A stretch of DNA of 44,945 nt from Planctomycetota bacterium (GCA_014384025.1 JACNGQ010000270.1:1-44945); one strand, 5' to 3'. Shown: positions 496-13,135, counted from the stretch's first letter. The notes: generated from the letters alone by a model not told the origin. Made by a program: numbers and translations.

Positions 496-607
496 TTCCT
501 GGTGACTATACTGACGGGGAAACGCCTGATCCCATTCCGAACTCAGAAGCTAAGCCCGCTCAGGCCGATGGTAGTCCTTACGGGCGAGAGTAGGTCATCG
601 CCAGGAA
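496..607 (+). rRNA. 5S ribosomal RNA
   Basis: The sequence has complementary ends (TTCCTGG at the 5' side, CCAGGAA at the 3' side), the conserved loop-C region CCCATTCCGAACTCAG, and the CGATGGTAGT and GCGAGAGTAGG segments typical of bacterial 5S rRNA. The length of about 112 bases fits. It lies downstream of 23S in the same orientation, so it ends the rRNA operon. The terminal bases are estimates. Confidence 0.95.
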
Positions 608-612
608 TTATA

Positions 613-647
613 AAGGCCGATACCGAAAGGTGTCGGCCTTTTCCTTT
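613..647 (+). terminator. Intrinsic terminator of the rRNA operon
   Basis: A 12-bp stem (613-624 with 629-640, one G-U pair) is capped by a GAAA tetraloop and followed by TTCCTTT. It starts 5 bases after the 5S gene. A near-identical copy occurs at 1295-1327. Confidence 0.9.
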
Positions 648-694
648 GGATTGAATTACGAAGAAGAACCAGATTATTAAAAGACGAGAAAAAT

Positions 695-1048
695 ATGCGT
701 ATAATAATAACAACACTACTTCTATGCTGCAGTAACATTTTTATGACATTCGCATGGTACGGCCATCTTAAAAACCTATCCCATCGCACGTGGGTATTTG
801 CGGCTATTATAAGCTGGGGGATAGCTCTTTTCGAATATCTGATTCAGGTTCCTGCCAACAGAATCGGCTATCAGGTGATGAACATCGGACAGTTGAAGAT
901 TCTGCAGGAGGTGATAACCTTGTCGATATTTGTTCCATTTTCTGTTTTATATATGAAGGAACATCTTCGTATGGATTATCTGTGGGCCGGTCTGTGTATT
1001 TTGGGTGCGGTATTTTTTATATTCCGTAAAAAACTTTCAGGAATATAG
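695..1048 (+). CDS. DMT_6 (DUF486) family small membrane protein
   Basis: This 117-residue protein is almost entirely hydrophobic, with four predicted membrane segments, the usual size for the DUF486/DMT_6 family related to small multidrug-resistance-type transporters. Recognisable family features are the FMTFAWYGHLK stretch near the N-terminus, the SWGIALFEYLIQVPANRIG segment and the C-terminal GAVFFIFRK. The substrate of this family is unknown. The ATG at 695 has only a weak purine-rich ribosome-binding site. The gene starts about 50 bases after the rRNA terminator and ends 28 bases before a broken 5S copy, so it sits between two copies of the rRNA operon tail. Family assignment is from memory of conserved residues. 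Confidence 0.85.
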   Translation: MRIIITTLLLCCSNIFMTFAWYGHLKNLSHRTWVFAAIISWGIALFEYLIQVPANRIGYQVMNIGQLKILQEVITLSIFVPFSVLYMKEHLRMDYLWAGLCILGAVFFIFRKKLSGI

Positions 1049-1119
1049 ATTCAATGGGAATTTTTAATGGATGTGTAAGTTCGCTCAGGCCGATGGTAGC
1101 CCTGTTAGTGCGAGAGCAG

Positions 1120-1250
1120 TTTTTAGCGGTTTCTTTTCCGCAATTACTGCGAAAGTTTTTGACTGACTGCACGTACTCGACGTATTTTAATACGCCTGCG
1201 TACGGCGGTAGTCAAACGCCTTGTACTTGCGAAAAACACCTCGCTAAAAA
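1120..1250 (+). repeat. Palindromic insertion element (MITE/REP-like) inside the 5S fragment
   Basis: The inserted stretch begins TTTTTAGCG (1120-1128) and has the exact inverse CGCTAAAAA at 1242-1250. Inner segments pair imperfectly (around 1148-1166 with 1205-1222), and a CGTAT/ATACG hairpin forms the tip. The whole can fold into one long cruciform. It has no coding capacity. A tail of about 30 bases (1251-1283) resembles a short repeat also seen at about 7804-7830. No second full copy is in the window, so its status as a mobile repeat is inferred. Confidence 0.5.
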
Positions 1251-1294
1251 TTCGTTATTGCCCTTTCGGCAAGCTCAAGACAGGCAGGATTATA

Positions 1295-1327
1295 AAGGCC
1301 GGTACCGAAAGGTGTCGGCCTTTTCCT
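1295..1327 (+). terminator. Duplicate of the rRNA terminator
   Basis: A 12-bp stem (1295-1306 with 1311-1322, two G-U pairs) has a GAAA loop and is followed by TTCCTTT. It is nearly identical to the terminator after the 5S gene. It probably now ends the DMT_6 transcript and insulates the downstream locus. Confidence 0.75.
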
Positions 1328-1394
1328 TTGGGCCGATTTTGCATGGAGAGAACAGAGAATTAAAAAATCAGGAGAAATATCTTTTCAGAGAATG

Positions 1395-1423
1395 TTGTTG
1401 ATTAAGAAAAAGGGGTATATAAT
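1395..1423 (+). promoter_or_regulatory. Putative sigma70-type promoter of the RiPP-like locus
   Basis: TTGTTG (1395-1400) and a perfect TATAAT (1418-1423) are separated by 17 bases. Transcription would start near 1430, giving a leader of about 60 bases before the GTG start at 1493. It lies downstream of the duplicated rRNA terminator. The -35 matches consensus at only three positions. Confidence 0.5.
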
Positions 1424-1492
1424 AGAAATGAGAGATAATTTCCATATGAACACGATAATAAATAGTAATAAGATTGTTGGAGGAAGAAGAAA

Positions 1493-2035
1493 GTGGCTCA
1501 TAACAAGGATTCCAAACGGCCCGAAGAGCAAGATGCGGTTTTCACTACCATAGTTGGTGGACGACCTCCCGGGTCGGGGACGAAAGTAGGCGCCATACCG
1601 CGCGGAGTTGAGGTCCTCGTTAAGAAGGCTTCAGTAGATCCGGAATTTCGTCAGAAATTGCTTGAAAAGCGAGGAGAGGCAGCACAAGAGATAGACCTTG
1701 AATTGACAGAAGCTGAGAAAAATATGTTGTCGAGCATATCGGCAGAGCAGTTAGAAAAAATCATCGAAAATACAAAAGTAGAGCCTGAACACCAAGCAAT
1801 ATTTTTGGGAACCGCTGGAAAGCTAATGCTTGCTGCAGTTATAGGTGTGGCTGTTGTATCTATGATGATGCCAAGCTTAGGGCACACCGTTGTCTGGGCA
1901 GGTATCTCGCCTGATCGCATTGAAAAGATGCGAATGGATGACTCGATTGAATCCAATGATGTTAATGAACCAAATGAAGTTGATCCAGATTCAACTGAGA
2001 ATTCACGAGCGGATCAATCGGAGATGGAAGAGTAG
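1493..2035 (+). CDS. RiPP-precursor-like protein A (leader helix, hydrophobic segment, acidic tail)
   Basis: The protein has 180 residues and starts at GTG 1493, preceded by GGAGG at 1479-1483. Residues 38-97 are a helical, charged region (VEVLVKKASVDPEFRQKLLE at the start, SAEQLEKIIENTKV at the end) resembling leader domains of Franean1_4349/nitrile-hydratase-related peptide precursors, where 'DPEFR..LL' is a hallmark. Residues 111-136 are hydrophobic and end in VVWA, like a signal peptide with its cleavage site. The remaining 44 residues begin GISPDR and are rich in Asp, Glu and Asn. The next gene encodes a paralogue, and a B12-radical SAM enzyme follows, so a modified, exported peptide is a reasonable inference. 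The family match is from memory. The protein could instead be a membrane-anchored protein of unknown role. Confidence 0.6.
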   Translation: MAHNKDSKRPEEQDAVFTTIVGGRPPGSGTKVGAIPRGVEVLVKKASVDPEFRQKLLEKRGEAAQEIDLELTEAEKNMLSSISAEQLEKIIENTKVEPEHQAIFLGTAGKLMLAAVIGVAVVSMMMPSLGHTVVWAGISPDRIEKMRMDDSIESNDVNEPNEVDPDSTENSRADQSEMEE

Positions 2036-2062
2036 TAATATAATTTTTAGAGGGATACACAA

Positions 2063-2527
2063 ATGGAAGATGATAATAAATCTATGCAACCCGGTGAACA
2101 ACAGATTGGTTCTATACCGGTCGGAATCGATGTGCTTGTAAAGAAAGCTTCAGTTGATTCTGAGTTTCGACAAATGCTGCTTGAAAAGCGGGGAGAGGCT
2201 GCACGTGAGATAGGTCTCGAATTGACGGAAGCGGAGCAGAAAATGCTATCGAGCATCTCGCTTGAACAGTTGGAGAAGATAATTGACAACACGAAAGTAA
2301 AGCCCGATCAACGAAGTATATTCCGTGGAAAGGCAGTGAAGCTTATGCTGGCTGCGGCAGCGGGTCTTGCTGTGGTGTCGATGTTTGGTGTGACAACGAG
2401 TACTGCTGGTATCTCTCCGGACCGCGTTAGAAAAATGAAAATGGATAACTTAAATGACTCCAATGATGTCAACGACCCAAATAAAGCAGATTTTGATGGT
2501 TTGAAGAGAGATGATTTGAAAGAATGA
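2063..2527 (+). CDS. RiPP-precursor-like protein B (paralogue of A)
   Basis: The protein has 154 residues and starts at ATG 2063 with AGAGGG at 2049-2054. It follows gene A by 27 bases. The leader-like region (residues 22-80) is nearly the same as in A: VLVKKASVD, EFRQ, LLEKRGEAA, LELTEAE, MLSSIS, EQLEKII and NTKV are all shared. A shorter N-terminus lacks A's proline/glycine-rich segment. Residues 91-115 form a hydrophobic stretch ending TTSTA, a good signal-peptidase-type site. The 39-residue tail begins GISPDR and shares K-M-x-M-D and SNDVN-x-PN with A, then diverges. No Cys occurs in the tail, so lanthionine or thioether chemistry is unlikely there. Precursor function is inferred. Confidence 0.6.
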   Translation: MEDDNKSMQPGEQQIGSIPVGIDVLVKKASVDSEFRQMLLEKRGEAAREIGLELTEAEQKMLSSISLEQLEKIIDNTKVKPDQRSIFRGKAVKLMLAAAAGLAVVSMFGVTTSTAGISPDRVRKMKMDNLNDSNDVNDPNKADFDGLKRDDLKE

Positions 2528-2533
2528 GATTAT

Positions 2534-4027
2534 ATGGCTGATATTACATTAGTTAATTTGAATATGCTTTATATTCGATACGGTGAGCAGACGGAAAGAG
2601 AACTGCATGTTCCGCTTGGTCCGCTTTACCTGACGAGGGTGCTGGAGGATGCCGGATTTAAAGTTGATTTCAGGGACTATCAACTCTGTGATGCGGATGA
2701 TCCGTTTGATATGGAGACGTTTCTGGAGTTTTTAAGGAATCCTGCGCCTGTAATCGGATTGTCGTGTATGGCTAATCTTCTGCCATTTACTATCCTGGCT
2801 ATGAAGGCTTTGCGTGGGAAGTATCCGGGCCGGACTTTAGTATTGGGTGGAGTGGGCTCGAAGTCTGTTGAGGATGAAATACTCAAGCGGTTTGACTGGA
2901 TAGACATTATTTGCCGCGGTGAGGCAGAGAAGACAGGTCCGGAATTATTGCGAGTGCTCAAAGAGGGGAGCAATCTTTCACAAGTAAAAGGAATATCATT
3001 CAGAGATAATGGTTCTATCCTTCATAATCGAGACCGCGAAAGGATACAGAACCTCGACAGTATAGCGTTTCCCGCCTTCGAGAAGATTGGCCTTGATAAA
3101 TATGCGGGTTTTGGGATGATGACAAGTCGAGGTTGCCCCTATCAGTGTACGTTCTGCTCTGTTGCTCCAGTTTGGAATCTTGAAAGTTATTCCCGGAGTC
3201 CGCAAAACATTGTGGAGGAAATGAAATTACTCAGAAAACGAGCAGGAATTGATCTCTTTCTTTTTCAGGACGAATTCTTTGTGTCCGGCAGGAAGCAGGT
3301 CATGGATTTTTGCAGAGAGATACAAAGAGAGGGTCTTGATGTTGAATTCAAGGCATTTGGACGTGTCAATCTGGTTGATAGGGAAATGATGCGGGCTCTT
3401 GCAGATTCGGGATGTATCGAGCTTCGTTTTGGTGTTGAATCCGGTTCAGATAAGATTCTATCAGAAATCAAAAAGGGATTCACTTCTTCAGAGGTTCTGG
3501 ATGTTGTTCCGTCGGCTATTGAGATTTTCCCGCGAGTGGATGCTTTCTACGTTTGGGGTTTTCCCTTTGAGACGATTGAGGATTTCAATCAATCTCTTTT
3601 TCAAATGATTTCGCTTCGTATGATGGGAGCCAGGATTTTGCCGAGTTTGCTATGTCTTCTACCACAGACAGATATATACCGTGAGTGGTCCGGCCGGGTA
3701 CCATTGAAATTTTGCTCATATTTGTTTCCTGAGTTTGTTTTTACAGGGCATGAAGTATGCCATGGAGGGGCTATTGAGATTCCCGAAGCTCACATGGACT
3801 ACTTTGAAATGATTCAGCAGAATCCGGATATATTTCCGGGTTTCTTCCATATGGATTTAGAGAGTAATGTGCTGTCGAAGCTTAAACTGCTTCGTCAATT
3901 TGGTTTCTATCCTGATCCGAGCAATCAACCGAAACAGTCCATACGAGACATTCAGAATAATGCGGATAGCTGTGGAGCACACAGTCCCCGAATAGAGCCG
4001 CAAAATTTGGCAACCCGAATTAACTGA
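2534..4027 (+). CDS. B12-binding-type radical SAM protein
   Basis: This 497-residue protein has an N-terminal Rossmann-like region (about 1-150; PLGPLYLTRVLEDAGF and VLGGVGS are typical of cobalamin-binding radical SAM enzymes of the BchE/P-methylase type) and a radical SAM core. The cluster motif is C201-PYQ-C205-TF-C208. GVESGSDKIL and WGFPFET (residues about 300 and 340) are conserved core elements. A classical DxHxxG B12 motif is not evident, as in several members. It starts 6 bases after precursor B, so translation is probably coupled and the precursors are likely substrates. Reactions in this class include methylation of unactivated carbons, ring contraction and other radical rearrangements; which applies cannot be read from sequence. 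Confidence 0.85.
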   Translation: MADITLVNLNMLYIRYGEQTERELHVPLGPLYLTRVLEDAGFKVDFRDYQLCDADDPFDMETFLEFLRNPAPVIGLSCMANLLPFTILAMKALRGKYPGRTLVLGGVGSKSVEDEILKRFDWIDIICRGEAEKTGPELLRVLKEGSNLSQVKGISFRDNGSILHNRDRERIQNLDSIAFPAFEKIGLDKYAGFGMMTSRGCPYQCTFCSVAPVWNLESYSRSPQNIVEEMKLLRKRAGIDLFLFQDEFFVSGRKQVMDFCREIQREGLDVEFKAFGRVNLVDREMMRALADSGCIELRFGVESGSDKILSEIKKGFTSSEVLDVVPSAIEIFPRVDAFYVWGFPFETIEDFNQSLFQMISLRMMGARILPSLLCLLPQTDIYREWSGRVPLKFCSYLFPEFVFTGHEVCHGGAIEIPEAHMDYFEMIQQNPDIFPGFFHMDLESNVLSKLKLLRQFGFYPDPSNQPKQSIRDIQNNADSCGAHSPRIEPQNLATRIN

Positions 4028-4240
4028 ACGATTTGGTAGACTCTTTTAAAAACGCCGGCAGGCACGGTCAATTGGTTATTGATAAATGTTGCTGAGATTC
4101 TTCGCTTCGTTCGAGTGGATGAGGATCAAGCCCAAACGAGTTTGAGCGTTCCACCCTATGCTTTTGGTTCTTTCTGTGATAAGTGGGTGGGGCATTTGTT
4201 CATGGTTCCGTGAAAATCAGTGTTACGAAGGAGGAGAGCA

Positions 4241-4300
4241 GCCGCCCTGCTGCTTTTGGTTGTTGGTGAGTGAGTGTTCAAAGCCGGGATTAATATTTTT
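4241..4300 (+). repeat. Degenerate intergenic repeat, copy 1
   Basis: The segment starts GCCGCCCTGCTGCTTTT and continues through GTGAGTGAGTG to AGCCGGGATTAAT. It aligns with 5134-5190 (GCCGCCCTACCGCTTTT, then GAGAGAGTG, then GGCCGGGCTTTAAT). A weaker third relative is at about 4152-4192. The alignment was made by eye and needs small gaps. Confidence 0.35.
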
Positions 4301-4338
4301 TCGTTGCTTAAAGTTGAGTTTTGTGTTAGTTATCATAG

Positions 4339-4371
4339 GCCGGTTTTGAAAGAAGCCGGCGTTTTGCTTTT
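4339..4371 (+). terminator. Intrinsic terminator upstream of the methyltransferase gene
   Basis: An 8-bp stem (GCCGGTTT at 4339-4346 with AAGCCGGC at 4353-4360, one G-U pair) has a 6-base loop and is followed by GTTTTGCTTTT. It implies that the precursor/radical SAM transcript can end here and that the methyltransferase gene is at least partly transcribed separately. Confidence 0.65.
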
Positions 4372-4407
4372 GATTTGCGACTGTATAAGGTATAGAGGTA
4401 TTGAATT

Positions 4408-5019
4408 ATGACGGCAAGGAGTTTCATTGAAAAAAAACGGAAGATACTGACTCGGCTGTTAAGCTTTGTTTTGGTTTTGCTGATACTTTTCTCGGAAAGC
4501 TACTGGGAAAAGACATTAATCAAAAGCGATATCTTTTTCCTGTTCGGGATTGTTCTGGTTGGAGTTGCGACTGTCGGACGCCTATGGTGTCTTCTTTATA
4601 TTTCCGGCTATAAAACAAATACTCTAATCAGATGGGGTCCATATTCTTTATGTCGTAATCCATTGTATTTTTTTAGTTTATTAGGCGGAGTAGGTGTTGG
4701 TCTTGCAAGTGAGACCCTTATGCTGCCGGGTATTATTCTTATCGGATTCGCATTATACTATCCGTTGGTCATAAGGGCCGAAGAAAGGAAGCTGCACAAT
4801 TTTCACGGGAAGGATTTTGAGGATTACATGAATATAACGCCAAGGTTCTTTCCGGAGTTTCGGGCTTTTAGGGAGCCGCAGGAATATACGGTCAAGCCAA
4901 AGGCATTCCGGAAAGGATTGTTCGATGCACTTTGGTTTGTCTGGCTGGTTGGAATTTTAGAGCTTATAGAAGCGTTTCACGAATATGATGTCCTGCCAGT
5001 TCTTTTTAAGCTTTATTGA
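4408..5019 (+). CDS. Isoprenylcysteine/phospholipid methyltransferase-like integral membrane protein
   Basis: This 203-residue protein has about five hydrophobic segments. The family signature is clear: GPYSLCRNPLYF (77-88), then a glycine-rich membrane helix, then RAEERKLHNFHGKDFEDY (123-140) and TPRFFP. These elements bind S-adenosylmethionine in ICMT/PEMT-type methyltransferases. Bacterial members methylate diverse lipids or small molecules, so the substrate cannot be assigned. AGAGG (4394-4398) precedes the ATG. An extra C-terminal segment (residues about 160-203) ends in one more hydrophobic helix. Its position just after the radical SAM enzyme suggests a possible tailoring role, which is inference from context only. 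Confidence 0.8.
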   Translation: MTARSFIEKKRKILTRLLSFVLVLLILFSESYWEKTLIKSDIFFLFGIVLVGVATVGRLWCLLYISGYKTNTLIRWGPYSLCRNPLYFFSLLGGVGVGLASETLMLPGIILIGFALYYPLVIRAEERKLHNFHGKDFEDYMNITPRFFPEFRAFREPQEYTVKPKAFRKGLFDALWFVWLVGILELIEAFHEYDVLPVLFKLY

Positions 5020-5040
5020 ATAAAGAGGATAATCGCCTCC

Positions 5041-5075
5041 GGAGGAGCTTCCTCCCCCTGTCATTAGTTTTTTTT
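5041..5075 (+). terminator. Weak candidate terminator after the methyltransferase gene
   Basis: GGAGGAGCTTCCTCC (5041-5055) is a 6-bp hairpin with a 3-base loop, overlapping an adjacent CCTCCGGAGG palindrome (5036-5045). A run of eight T follows at 5068-5075. The 12-base gap between stem and T-run makes it a poor intrinsic terminator. Confidence 0.35.
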
Positions 5076-5133
5076 CGCATGATCACGGCCAAACAAGTCA
5101 GTAGATGCGATGCCGGATGACGCATTTGAATGT

Positions 5134-5190
5134 GCCGCCCTACCGCTTTTTTGTTTTTAGAGAGAGTGTGAGGCCGGGCTTTAATAAAGG
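5134..5190 (+). repeat. Degenerate intergenic repeat, copy 2
   Basis: The segment starts GCCGCCCTACCGCTTTT and ends near GGCCGGGCTTTAATAAAGG. It resembles 4241-4300. Upstream, GATCACGGCCAAACAAGT (5080-5097) also resembles GATCAAGCCCAAACGAGT at about 4125-4142, so the related unit may be about 100 bases long. Confidence 0.35.
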
Positions 5191-5310
5191 GCTTTGCTTT
5201 TTTCTTTGCGCGAGTGCTTTTTATAAAATGGCTTGAATTAGAACAAAGCTTATTTATGATGATGGGGACTAACCTGGTGATTTATATTTTGGTTATTATC
5301 AGAGAGTAAA

Positions 5311-6042
5311 ATGAAGGACAGGCAAAAACTAAGGAAAGGTATTATATTATTCTCTTTCTTTCTGTTTCCGGCGACTTTTTATTATTTTTCTCCTGTGCTT
5401 ATTATTCAGGCCACTGCGGAGGGGATAATAAACGGCAGCTTTATAATGTTCGGGCTTATGTTTATCAGCTCACTTGTTCTCGGGAGGGCTTTTTGCGGAT
5501 GGGTTTGTCCGAGCGGGGGTTGTCAGGAGGCGATATTTTCAGCAAGAGACAAGAGAGTTACAAAAGGAAATTACGTTAAATGGATTATCTGGGCGCCGTG
5601 GGTCGGCTCTATCGTGATACCGGCAATTCGGGGCGGGGGTTATACACGAACAGAATTTTTCTATCATACGGAATATGGTTTTTCAATCGGCAACGTACAA
5701 GCTCTTATAACTTATTTTATTGTTCTTTTTGTTCTTATCGTGCTGCCTGCTTTTATTTTCGGAAGAAGGTCATTCTGTCATCATTTGTGCTGGATGGCCC
5801 CGTTTATGATAGCAGGCAGACAAATTCGCAATAAATTCGGCTGGCCTTCACTGAAGTTAAAATCGGAGCCTGACAAATGCAAGCAATGTCTTAAATGCAC
5901 GACAAGCTGTCCAATGAGCCTCCCAGTCGAAGATATGGTTAATGGAAATAAAATGGAGGATGCCGAGTGCATTCTTTGCGGGACCTGTATTGATGTATTT
6001 AAGTTCGATACAATAAAATATGCTTTCTATAACAGGGCATAA
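5311..6042 (+). CDS. Membrane polyferredoxin (NapH-like 4Fe-4S binding protein)
   Basis: The protein has 243 residues with about four membrane helices. The NapH-type motifs C62-GWV-C66-PSGG-C71 and C156-HHL-C160 lie at the membrane face. The C-terminal ferredoxin-like domain has one complete motif, C190-x2-C193-x2-C196-x3-C200-P. The second motif, C220-x2-C223-x2-C226, is followed by Phe230 where the fourth cysteine and proline are expected, so the second cluster lacks a usual ligand. Such proteins pass electrons across or along the membrane to a partner enzyme. In this locus the radical SAM enzyme or the exported reductase are possible partners (inference). The Shine-Dalgarno sequence is weak (AGAGAG). 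Confidence 0.8.
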   Translation: MKDRQKLRKGIILFSFFLFPATFYYFSPVLIIQATAEGIINGSFIMFGLMFISSLVLGRAFCGWVCPSGGCQEAIFSARDKRVTKGNYVKWIIWAPWVGSIVIPAIRGGGYTRTEFFYHTEYGFSIGNVQALITYFIVLFVLIVLPAFIFGRRSFCHHLCWMAPFMIAGRQIRNKFGWPSLKLKSEPDKCKQCLKCTTSCPMSLPVEDMVNGNKMEDAECILCGTCIDVFKFDTIKYAFYNRA

Positions 6043-6057
6043 ACAAAGGGTATCATT

Positions 6058-6780
6058 TTGGTTATTAGCAGTCATAGCGTTCAATGTGTGAAACTGGGCT
6101 GGACCCGGTGCTATTTGTTGAAGTGTACCGGCGGCTATTTGCTTATTGACGTTTATTATCCCGGGTATTACGGGCAATTCGAGAAGAAGCTTGAAAAAAT
6201 AGGGATAACGGCCTCAGATATCAAGTACCTGCTACTGACCCATCATCATGATGACCACGCCGGCTTTGCGGCAGAGCTGGTTCGGAATACGGGATGTCGG
6301 GTCATAGCTCACCGCAATGCGTTATCGGCGCTGGAAAAAGGCGATTCGGAAGATGCCTGCGATAAGCCAGTCAATCGGCGCCTCCAGATAGTCTTTACGT
6401 TTTACATGCTGTTTCATAAAGAGTTCAAGTTTCCGCCGGTGAGATTAGCCGAGAGGGACATTATTATTGAGGGTGATAATGACGAGTTTCTCAAAGGAAT
6501 CGGCATTGACGGGGTCATCTTGCATACGCCCGGTCATACGAGAGACTCGATTTCGGTATTACTTTCTGACGGAAGCGCTTTTGTTGGCGATACTGCTATG
6601 AATTTCCTGCGATGGACGGGAGTTGGGCACAGGCCGATTTACATCGAGGACATCGATACTGTGTATGAAAGCTGGCGGAAACTTCGAGAACGCGGGGCAA
6701 GAGTCATCTATCCTTCTCACGGCAATTGCTTTTCCGCCGCAAAATTAGATAAATCAGCGAGACTTGCCATATCGACTTGA
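6058..6780 (+). CDS. Metallo-beta-lactamase-fold hydrolase
   Basis: The protein has 240 residues and starts at TTG 6058, 15 bases after the polyferredoxin stop codon, with AAAGGG at 6045-6050 as ribosome-binding site. The metal-binding motif is H62-x-H64-x-D66-H67 (THHHDDHAG), with further ligands H160 (HTPGH), D178 (GDTAMN) and H221 (YPSHG), a full set for a dinuclear site. No signal peptide is visible, so it acts in the cytoplasm. Family members hydrolyse thioesters, lactones, phosphodiesters or lactams; the substrate is unknown. Close spacing to the upstream gene implies one transcript. Confidence 0.85.
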   Translation: MVISSHSVQCVKLGWTRCYLLKCTGGYLLIDVYYPGYYGQFEKKLEKIGITASDIKYLLLTHHHDDHAGFAAELVRNTGCRVIAHRNALSALEKGDSEDACDKPVNRRLQIVFTFYMLFHKEFKFPPVRLAERDIIIEGDNDEFLKGIGIDGVILHTPGHTRDSISVLLSDGSAFVGDTAMNFLRWTGVGHRPIYIEDIDTVYESWRKLRERGARVIYPSHGNCFSAAKLDKSARLAIST

Positions 6781-6870
6781 AGCGGTTATCATATGCGATT
6801 ATACCGCATTGCTGAAGCGGCAGATGTAGCAGGTCAATGGTTGCTTAAAGTTGTATGAAAGGAATCCATT

Positions 6871-7785
6871 ATGAGCGGAACAAGCATTTCTCGTCGTCAG
6901 TTTATTAAGGGCACGGCCGCATTAGCCGGAGCCACGTTGTTGTCATCGTGTAATGTTGGGCCAATTGCCACGGGGCGCAAGCTAACGGCAGTGGATCAGG
7001 TAGCTTTGGGCAAGACAGGATTGAAGCTAAGCCGGCTTGGTATTGGTACGGGCAGTAAAGGGGGCAGTATCCAGCGGGCTTTGGGGGCCGATGGTTTTAA
7101 CCGGTTGATACGCTATGCTTATGATCAGGGGATTACGTATATCGATACGGCCGACAGCTACAAAACGCATACAATGGTTCGAGAGGCGATCAAGGGGCTT
7201 CCGCGTGAGAAGCTGTTTATACAGTCGAAGATGCCGGGTATTCCGGAAAAGCCAATGGAGGTGCTGGACCGCTATCTTACGGAATTAGGTGTTGATTATA
7301 TCGACAGCCTGTTATGTCACTGTATGGTCAAGACCAACTGGGAGGATGATCACAAGCGGATGATGGATATCTTCGAGGACGCCAAAGACAGGAAGATAAT
7401 CCGGGCCCATGGCGTGTCTTGTCATTCGCTGCCCGCGACGACAAAAGCGGCGGAGGTGGATTGGGTAGATGTGAATCTGGTGCGGATAAATCCGCAGGGA
7501 GTGCATATGGATACTCCGGCTGAGACCTGGAATGCCGTGAGCGATTCTTCTCATTTGCCTGATGTGCTCAAGCAAGTCAAGATTATGCGGCAAAACGGCC
7601 ACGGCATTATAGGAATGAAAATTATCGGGAACGGTGATTTTACAAAAGCTGAGGACCGTGAGAAATCCATACGCTTTACGATGCAGTCCGGCCTGGTTGA
7701 TGCGGTTGTGATAGGCTTAAAGAGTGCTGCGGAAGTCGATGAGGCCATTGTGCGTATTAATAGTGCCCTTGCAGAAATTGCCTGA
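6871..7785 (+). CDS. Tat-exported aldo/keto reductase lipoprotein
   Basis: The protein has 304 residues. The N-terminus is a twin-arginine signal (SRRQFIKG, residues 7-14) followed by a hydrophobic stretch and a lipobox-like LLSSC with Cys27. The mature part is an aldo/keto reductase (TIM barrel): LGKTGLKLSRLGIGTG (46-61) and the catalytic tetrad D92, Y97, K120 and H150 are all present. Export through Tat implies a folded, NADP-loaded enzyme outside the cytoplasm, or a non-catalytic role. AAAGGA (6858-6863) precedes the ATG. It is the last gene of the run that starts with the precursor-like genes. A gap of 90 bases separates it from the MBL gene, so an independent promoter is possible. Confidence 0.85.
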   Translation: MSGTSISRRQFIKGTAALAGATLLSSCNVGPIATGRKLTAVDQVALGKTGLKLSRLGIGTGSKGGSIQRALGADGFNRLIRYAYDQGITYIDTADSYKTHTMVREAIKGLPREKLFIQSKMPGIPEKPMEVLDRYLTELGVDYIDSLLCHCMVKTNWEDDHKRMMDIFEDAKDRKIIRAHGVSCHSLPATTKAAEVDWVDVNLVRINPQGVHMDTPAETWNAVSDSSHLPDVLKQVKIMRQNGHGIIGMKIIGNGDFTKAEDREKSIRFTMQSGLVDAVVIGLKSAAEVDEAIVRINSALAEIA

Positions 7786-10858: not shown

Positions 10859-13135
10859 ATGAAGGCTGGACATTTGCGAGTTATGAAAATAAAAGCAGTG
10901 CTCTTACTATTATTTACGACTTGCGCCTTGGCTGGCGTCAATAAGGTTCCCTCGGACTATCCAACTATTCAGGCGGGAATTGATGCAAGTGTGAATGGTG
11001 ATACCGTCCTTGTAGCTCCCGGAACTTATACCGGCGAGGGCAATCGAGATATCGACTTCAAAGGCAAGGCTATAACAGTTAAAAGTGAACAAGGCCCTCA
11101 GACGTGTATCATGGACTGTCAGGGATCTGAAGACGAACAACACAGAGGCTTTTATTTCCATAGAGATGAGGACACCAATTCTGTTGTGGAAGGCTTCACC
11201 GTTACTTATGGATATTATACTGATAATATGGGAGGTGGAATATACTGTGATGCTAGTAGCCCACTCATCAAAAACTGCATAGTGGCAGAAAATACAGCTT
11301 GGCTTGGTGGCGGCATCGCGTGCGATTCTTCGAACGCAGTCATCACCAATTGCATCATCATCAGTAATAGGGCCAGATTAGGTACAGGGGGCGGGATATT
11401 TTGCATATACGGTAGCCCACATATTTTAGACTGCCTGATAACAGATAATACCGCTGACGTTGCTGGTGGAGTAGGAATTGGGAGAATAGGTGATAGATCA
11501 TCGCTGCTGACGATGACAAATTGTTTCATCACTGGTAATAAGGCCAAAGGTTCCGGTGGTGGAATGTATTGCAATGGTGAGATTACCATAACTAACTGCT
11601 TCATCATCGGTAATAAAGCTAAAGGTGGTGGTGGGATAGAATGCTCTGGCAAGATTACCCTTTTAAATTGTACTATCTCTGGCAACCGCACCGATTATAA
11701 TGGCGGCGGAGGAGGTATCCAATTTAGTTCTGCTGGAAAAGTAAGCAATTCAATCATCTATGGAAACATAGCTCCCAGAGATGAAGGGAAGGAAATTTAC
11801 CTGGGTCCATATGGTGCCGGTGGGTGCCGTCCCGACTTGATTAAGATCACACATAGTGTGGTAGGAAGTGATCCTAATGCAATCAACATACTACGCTGTT
11901 TAAGTGGAGAATGGCTGCATGCAGATCCACTCTTTGCTAATATCGGCTACTGGGATTCTAATGATACACCTGACGATCCTAACGACGATTTTTGGGTAGA
12001 TGGAGATTATCATTTGAAATCTCAAGCTGGTAGATGGGACCCGAACAGTGAAAGCTGGGTGGTGGATGATATTACAAGTCCGTGTATTGATGCGGGGGAT
12101 CCGAACAGTCCGGTTGGTGATGAGCCGGAGCCTAACGGCGACAGGGTCAATATGGGGGCATACGGGGGGACGGCTGAGGCGAGCAAATCAGGTGCTTCGT
12201 GGTGGTTTGCAACGACTCAAGGGCCGATTGCAGCCGAGGGGCTTGGTGTAATACTTCCTCATGAACATATCTTTACCGACCTTCGAGGACCTGCAACGCG
12301 GGGGTATGGACAGGCGGATGCGGCGGATGTCGTGCGTGTGATGGCGCCGCTGCTGGAAGAGGCGAAGGACAAGGGGGTGGGACTTCTGTTTGAGTGCAGC
12401 AGTATCGGCGTGGGGAGGAATGTTTCTATTCTTTCGGAAGTGTCTGCGACATCGGGATTGCCGGTGGTTGTGCCGACGGGGGTTTATGGGCGTGCGAATT
12501 TTGCGCCGCCTGAGCATAAGAATATGAGCGAGGATGAATTGACGGAGCTGTTTATTAGCGAAATTCGTGAAGGGATTGAAGGAACGGGTATTAAGGCCGG
12601 CTTTATTAAGATAGCGACCGGCGGAAGTAATATGACGGCGCTGGAGGAAAAGTTCCTTCGTGCGGCCGGACGTGCGGCAAAGGAGACGGGTGCCGCTATT
12701 GCAAGTCATACGCCGATAGGAAGCAATGCTGTAAGACAGGCTGATATCCTGGAATCCATCAGTCCGGCGATACGGTTAATCTGGGTGCATGCCCAGAATG
12801 AGAGCAACCGGAGTCTGCACCGGCAATTGGCCGGGCGAGGGGTCTTTATTGAGTTCGATTCGTTGGGGTGGAATCCGGGGCAGGACTCAACTTTTATAGC
12901 CGCAATCAAGGAGCTGCTTGCGGCAGGTTATGGAGAGCAGATTTTGCTATCGCATGATGCCGGGTGGTATCAGCCGGGAGAACAAAACGGCGGGACTCAA
13001 ATGCCATATACATACCTTATTGATACTTTCATACCTAAGCTCAGAGACAGCGGCGTTGACAATGAGGCGATTCGGATGATTACCGAGATTAATCCGATTC
13101 GGGCATTTGGTTTCAATCAGGATGTAAATCCATAG
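10859..13135 (+). CDS. Secreted fusion of a right-handed beta-helix and a phosphotriesterase-family hydrolase
   Basis: The protein has 758 residues from ATG 10859; ATG 10883 gives a tidier signal peptide (MKIKAVLLLLFTTCALAG). Residues about 30-440 form a parallel beta-helix: repeated G-G-G-I-x-C and 'ITNCxIxxN' turns, ending with VNMGAYGGTAEAS. Residues about 455-750 are a phosphotriesterase-family TIM barrel with every metal ligand: H468-E-H470, the carboxylated-lysine candidate K584 (FIKIATGG), H617, H644 and D700 (SHDAG). Known members hydrolyse lactones, phosphotriesters or related esters. The second half is visibly richer in G and C than the first, with the shift near 12070-12150. The 3' end overlaps the convergent DUF362 gene by 19 bases. 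I know of no standard family with this architecture, but have not searched. Confidence 0.85.
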   Translation: MKAGHLRVMKIKAVLLLLFTTCALAGVNKVPSDYPTIQAGIDASVNGDTVLVAPGTYTGEGNRDIDFKGKAITVKSEQGPQTCIMDCQGSEDEQHRGFYFHRDEDTNSVVEGFTVTYGYYTDNMGGGIYCDASSPLIKNCIVAENTAWLGGGIACDSSNAVITNCIIISNRARLGTGGGIFCIYGSPHILDCLITDNTADVAGGVGIGRIGDRSSLLTMTNCFITGNKAKGSGGGMYCNGEITITNCFIIGNKAKGGGGIECSGKITLLNCTISGNRTDYNGGGGGIQFSSAGKVSNSIIYGNIAPRDEGKEIYLGPYGAGGCRPDLIKITHSVVGSDPNAINILRCLSGEWLHADPLFANIGYWDSNDTPDDPNDDFWVDGDYHLKSQAGRWDPNSESWVVDDITSPCIDAGDPNSPVGDEPEPNGDRVNMGAYGGTAEASKSGASWWFATTQGPIAAEGLGVILPHEHIFTDLRGPATRGYGQADAADVVRVMAPLLEEAKDKGVGLLFECSSIGVGRNVSILSEVSATSGLPVVVPTGVYGRANFAPPEHKNMSEDELTELFISEIREGIEGTGIKAGFIKIATGGSNMTALEEKFLRAAGRAAKETGAAIASHTPIGSNAVRQADILESISPAIRLIWVHAQNESNRSLHRQLAGRGVFIEFDSLGWNPGQDSTFIAAIKELLAAGYGEQILLSHDAGWYQPGEQNGGTQMPYTYLIDTFIPKLRDSGVDNEAIRMITEINPIRAFGFNQDVNP

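Follow-up and report, generated by a model that had tools for sequence, protein, structure and literature searches.

The window, by which we mean the whole 44,945-nucleotide stretch of Planctomycetota DNA that was analyzed, encodes two tandem leader proteins, A and B; the gene of a cobalamin-type radical SAM enzyme begins 6 bases downstream of B (Table 1). In our favored reading, which we hold to be fairly likely from sequence comparisons, positions 1493-4027 form a two-component protein-modification module in which the enzyme modifies a motif of the leader proteins in the cytoplasm and the products are then exported. The N-terminal Os1348/NHLP-type leader would recruit the B12 radical SAM enzyme, which would modify residues of a G-I-R-P-D-x-P motif in the flexible tail, most likely by C-methylation of an unactivated carbon, and the modified proteins would subsequently cross the membrane at their hydrophobic segment. 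This stretch is also the conserved unit, as positions 1395-1492 contain no coding part of the module. Upstream of the module lies an rRNA operon, of which the window contains the 3′ part of the 23S rRNA gene (1-323) and a 5S rRNA gene (498-606), and a partial repeat of the post-5S sequence recurs near 1285-1336. Further downstream, an ORF of 758 residues (10859-13135, plus strand) appears, judged from its sequence, to combine a repeat-rich N-terminal half with a phosphotriesterase-like C-terminal half.

Table 1. Features of the module and of the genes downstream of it (window coordinates).
Feature	Coordinates	Strand	Remarks
Leader protein A	1493-2035	+	180 aa, GTG start; NF038399 42.3 bits, above the cut-off of 40
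TTIVGGRPPG N-terminal motif of A	1544-1573	+	Kept in A-type copies at most loci; absent from B
GISPDR motif of A (family consensus G-I-R-P-D-x-P)	1901-1918	+	Motif statistics
Leader protein B	2063-2527	+	154 aa; tandem paralogue of A, 64% identical
GISPDR motif of B	2408-2425	+	Comparison with A and motif statistics
Cobalamin-type radical SAM enzyme	2534-4027	+	497 aa; presumed modifying enzyme; PF02310 and PF04055
CxxxCxxC cluster-binding motif (CPYQCTFC, residues 201-208)	3134-3157	+	Cysteines invariant in 15 aligned members
CGAH in the enzyme C-terminal tail (residues 480-483; tail SCGAHSPRIEPQNLATR)	3971-3982	+	Invariant in 15 aligned members
ICMT/PEMT-like gene	4408-5019	+	Family assignment by profile search holds
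NapH-like gene	5311-6042	+	Family assignment by profile search holds
MBL gene	6058-6780	+	Family assignment by profile search holds
Tat AKR gene	6871-7785	+	Family assignment by profile search holds

The leader is an Os1348/NHLP-type helical domain fused to a hydrophobic export segment, behind which lies a variable cargo. Leader protein B scored 38.8 bits against NF038399 (Os1348 family of the NHLP clan), just under the cut-off of 40, and the homologues scored 25-43 bits. A sequence-only reading of the window had called both proteins precursor-like and proposed a comparison with the RiPP leader families Franean1_4349 and NHLP/Nif11. A likeness was found to the Os1348 family, whose threshold A exceeds and B narrowly misses, but did not extend to PF14407 (Franean1_4349, Frankia_peptide), for which both proteins reached about 20 bits against a gathering score of 48, or to TIGR03793 (NHLP/proteusin precursor), for which B reached 13.8 bits against a cut-off of 50.9 and A had no listed match. 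An AlphaFold model of B contained a helical bundle at residues 20-88 (pLDDT mostly above 90) followed by a disordered tail, and the solved structure closest to this model was Os1348 (6LK7; Z 6.2 over 64 residues). This match, though weak, is consistent.

Four parts can be distinguished in the leader proteins, homologues of which were found at about 28 loci. The N-terminal T-T-I-V-G-G-R-P-P-G motif is present in many copies and absent from many others, such as B. It is followed by the leader proper, G-[IV]-E-V-L-[VL]-K-K-A-x-V-D-P-x-F-R..., and by the hydrophobic segment, which in many copies is preceded by a Tat-like R-x-x-F-L-G-K; two homologues exceeded the Tat cut-off of TIGR01409. The tail varies in length from some 40 residues to over 450, giving leader-headed, export segment-containing proteins of about 150-620 residues, and some tails hold known domains (CarboxypepD_reg, TonB_C, T2SSG or acyl-carrier-like). 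The tail of A is acidic, and in one leader protein (L033, 7800-8819, plus strand) the acyl-carrier-like domain lies behind the GIxPDxP motifs. A strict lipobox was found at the hydrophobic segment in 24 of 60 homologues (0.76 in shuffled sequences), which makes membrane crossing at this segment plausible. To judge from this anatomy, the segment would serve in many homologues as a lipoprotein or Tat-like signal peptide, and cleavage by signal peptidase would release both leader and signal at once, so that no dedicated transporter or protease would be needed. The segments of A and B have no lipobox and could instead stay as membrane anchors.

The proposed target is a motif that recurs across the family. 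The pattern G..[PAV][DE].P occurred in 91 copies in 44 of 60 proteins at 21 of 25 loci (shuffled mean 3.15), and windows with at least five of the seven consensus residues numbered 87 (shuffled mean 0.58); L015, L088 and L092 are left out of these counts. A strict form of the pattern was found 54 times in 7,766 tail residues and not once in the 88,542 residues of 267 other genes at the same loci. The GISPDR tail that the sequence-only reading had singled out as the modified part thus proved to be a repeated motif of the whole leader-protein family. The window proteins carry one copy each, AGISPDR, directly behind the hydrophobic segment, while in the family the motif is often repeated within one protein and often lies close to the C-terminus. 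Some features of the motif speak against the favored reading. No side chain is invariant and would thereby point to one target, the leave-one-out frequencies being 0.94 for G, 0.77 for the last P, 0.76 for D, 0.70 for the first P, 0.58 for R and 0.57 for I, and a clear motif is missing from a few leader proteins, including the first copy at L013.

Alternatively, the enzyme may act on the leader proteins outside the motif, for instance on TTIVGGRPPG or on the cargo, and the motif may serve in binding or sorting as a tag that is recognized once the protein has been exported. The motif's frequent position at the extreme C-terminus, which is reminiscent of sorting tags, and its attachment to unrelated cargo of the kinds listed above agree with this explanation, and TTIVGGRPPG is conserved as well. 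However, that sequence is missing from many copies, B among them, no sorting gene is recurrent at the loci, and the presence of several motif copies per protein is a feature of multi-core substrates; we therefore regard this alternative as unlikely, though it deserves some weight.

We next consider the association between the leader proteins and the enzyme. At 20 loci, one to six tandem leader proteins are followed by a full-length enzyme, and at two more (L014 and L037) the enzyme begins but is then interrupted by a contig end or N-gap; at five others (L031, L036, L040, L092 and L094) the contig ends too soon downstream of the leader protein. Where the spacing of the last leader protein and the enzyme was measured, the two either overlap or have no more than 139 bases between them. 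Homologues regularly found without a radical SAM neighbor would have counted against the sequence-only reading, but the enzyme or its start was present at 22 of the 25 loci whose downstream sequence could be read. The three exceptions are L032, with no enzyme within 1.3 kb downstream of the leader protein; L088 (8725-9198, minus strand), where a leader protein continues in frame into the C-terminal ~65 residues of the enzyme, CGAH tail included, as a result either of a deletion or of faulty assembly; and L015, a remote homologue with a leader-like domain in a 670-residue protein (E 7.9e-5).

The loci bearing the enzyme come from Planctomycetota and from MAGs whose titles name Zixiibacteriota, Verrucomicrobiia, Coatesbacteria, Chloroflexota and Desulfomonile. 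In GTDB species genomes, a scan recovered 20 loci with titles from the same groups and from Nealsonbacteria; because the records are MAGs, a single small contig may have been misbinned. In the genome of the window itself, only A and B matched the leader-protein search, and in two of 198 relatives (G031 and G087) leader proteins directly precede the enzyme, which shares 84% and 71% identity, respectively, with that of the window. Among 392 genomes of the phylum, ten had a leader-protein match (one of them weak) and eight had the enzyme at E <1e-200, all eight being among the ten (hypergeometric 3.5e-15, uncorrected for relatedness). Enzyme and leader distances were correlated (Mantel r 0.50, 15 of 5000 permutations), which could be partly explained by shared phylogeny. 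Together, these neighborhood data strongly support the interpretation of the precursor-like proteins and the radical SAM enzyme, already paired in the earlier reading, as a conserved, putative modification unit.

The enzyme has the hallmarks of a cobalamin-dependent radical SAM protein, namely a B12-binding domain (PF02310, 43.5 bits; cut-off 32.1) and a radical SAM domain with CxxxCxxC (PF04055, 65.1 bits; cut-off 29.5). Its best NCBIfam score was to ApyD (NF050148, 162.9 bits), far off the equivalog cut-off of 750, and it remained below the cut-offs of TIGR03975 (RiPP maturation radical SAM C-methyltransferase; 102.1 bits against 281.85) and, with regard to MgmA, TIGR04014 (87 bits against 360). 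Profile searches of the PDB matched CysS, MgmA (9ccb), OxsB, AprD4 and TokK, and the enzyme model was closest to CysS, AprD4, OxsB, MgmA and TsrM (Z 22-24, 356-418 residues aligned). B12 radical SAM enzymes whose known substrates are peptides or proteins, as in the case of ApyD and MgmA, are C-methyltransferases, and for this reason the putative modification of the motif is probably a C-methylation, but the presence of AprD4 (a dehydratase) and OxsB (ring contraction) among the structural neighbors means that methylation is not assured.

The same comparison raises the possibility that the enzyme acts on some other substrate, such as a lipid, cofactor or small molecule, with the leader proteins serving as regulators, scaffolds or carriers: the fold relatives CysS, TokK, OxsB and AprD4 act on small or carrier-bound molecules, and the L033 leader protein has its acyl-carrier-like domain. 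Against this, up to six tandem leader proteins with a kept leader, a repeated motif and a variable cargo form the pattern of a substrate, and the loci share no further biosynthetic gene; we consider this explanation improbable.

Members of the enzyme family share a C-terminal CGAH tail, placed after a variable linker, which was missing from the outgroup enzymes checked; relative to these, the invariant tail appears to be private to the family. One B12 radical SAM enzyme 47% identical to that of the window (L020, 7261-8775, minus strand) was treated as an outgroup because it lacks CGAH and no leader protein was detected nearby. Its N-terminus contains IPIVGARPGSG, resembling the TTIVGGRPPGSG motif of the leader proteins, and its neighbors are a small lipoprotein-like ORF, an SDR-type gene and a 754-residue double radical SAM protein. 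Adjacent pairs of B12 radical SAM genes with E values of about 1e-100 to the enzyme family were seen in other Planctomycetota (L076-L083), and leader proteins were absent from the flanks examined there.

According to the sequence-only reading, the pathway extended over seven genes, with the ICMT, NapH, MBL and AKR genes adding electron supply and extracytoplasmic tailoring. All seven genes were found where it had placed them, on the plus strand, with the radical SAM cysteines at C201-x3-C205-x2-C208, and shared strand and neighboring position in the window are what favors a common pathway. Clustering of all genes at 28 loci nevertheless revealed no family of fixed neighbors besides the leader proteins and the enzyme. 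Two further clusters, at three or more loci each, varied in place and strand and did not include the window's ICMT, NapH, MBL or AKR, and no transporter or peptidase family was recurrent at these loci, though one encoded at a distance may exist. Thus, of the predicted co-occurrences, that of leader proteins with radical SAM genes recurred, whereas that of leader proteins with AKR did not; nor did ICMT, NapH or MBL genes lie near leader proteins at any other locus.

Congeneric genomes contain these genes separately from the module. ICMT, MBL and AKR genes lie together in G001 (83, 86 and 94% identical) with neither the module nor NapH, and MBL-AKR is present in G003, again without the module; a NapH match was found in one of 61 genomes, that of the window. 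In another congener (G005, L098), matches to window 516-648 (the 5S rRNA end) and 4127-4257 are only ~64 bases apart, so that window 649-4126, and with it the module, is absent as a block. We rejected the downstream genes as pathway members on these congener data, and their participation now seems very improbable. The doubt that the earlier reading itself had voiced over a single operon was borne out in this way; scanning recovered a terminator-like site at 4339, where it had placed a terminator, but sites of this kind are no more numerous in the region than in shuffled sequences (7 vs. a mean of 5.3).

Several known systems resemble parts of the module. Proteusins have a B12 radical SAM partner, as do the leader proteins. 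A long nitrile hydratase-like leader is likewise common to the leader proteins and to the proteusin/NHLP and Nif11 RiPPs (PMC2887384). The module differs from proteusins in that TIGR03793 scores are far below the cut-off, no transporter or peptidase gene is recurrent at the 28 loci, the export segment is fused to the leader, and the repeated motif is carried on a larger cargo. The Os1348 family (NF038399; Pseudomonas Os17 cluster OS3, PDB 6LK7) has the same leader domain as A and B, but Os1348 itself is an 85-residue protein from a cluster with an acetyltransferase and transporters, and its paper makes no mention of radical SAM, whereas here the domain heads much longer proteins with an export segment.

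Modified precursors that contain a signal peptide have their closest precedent in the bufferins, MNIO-modified RiPPs with Sec signal peptides, such a peptide being rare among bacterial RiPP precursors (PMC12452194). As proposed for the module, bufferins are modified before export via general secretion, and some substrates are protein-sized (PMC12452194). They differ in their enzyme, in their Cys-motif targets and in that the signal peptide replaces the leader, whereas in the module it lies behind an NHLP-type leader; no MNIO was recurrent at the 28 loci, where the radical SAM enzyme was the only recurrent partner. MgmA (9ccb), the methyl-coenzyme M reductase glutamine C-methyltransferase, is a B12 radical SAM enzyme that acts on a protein, and the enzyme model aligned with it at Z 22.7 over 356 residues with 21% identity; it differs in being archaeal and in having a single large substrate and no NHLP leader. 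ApyD, a peptide C-beta-methyltransferase that makes beta-methyltyrosine in the aminopyruvatide pathway (PMC10635010), has an RRE and works with a P450, an MNIO and a methyltransferase, none of which recurs at the module loci. As its product is a methylated tyrosine and not a methylated Asp, we draw no conclusion from it about the Asp of the motif.

As far as tested, the fusion of an NHLP-type leader to an export segment and repeated motif, with a B12 radical SAM enzyme encoded next to it, is a new form of an established type: the open-access literature searched contained no description of a leader protein paired with a B12 radical SAM enzyme and export, and no occurrence of the motif strings GIRPDRP, SCGAHSP and TIVGGRPPG. 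Most of what is known about RiPP-type leaders and B12 radical SAM enzymes comes from natural products that are small and secreted. In contrast, the leader is joined here to an export segment and to a protein-sized, varied cargo, and the seven-residue motif is the only shared target candidate. We tentatively suggest that the repeated GIRPDRP motif on varied exported cargo is a portable envelope tag or linker on which the enzyme writes a carbon-level modification, with the leader discarded along with the signal peptide, rather than a natural product. If confirmed, the module would represent a minimal system of two genes with the potential to mark a variety of exported proteins by radical chemistry, and would provide both a portable tag for enzyme engineering and a function class for unannotated proteins of Planctomycetota.
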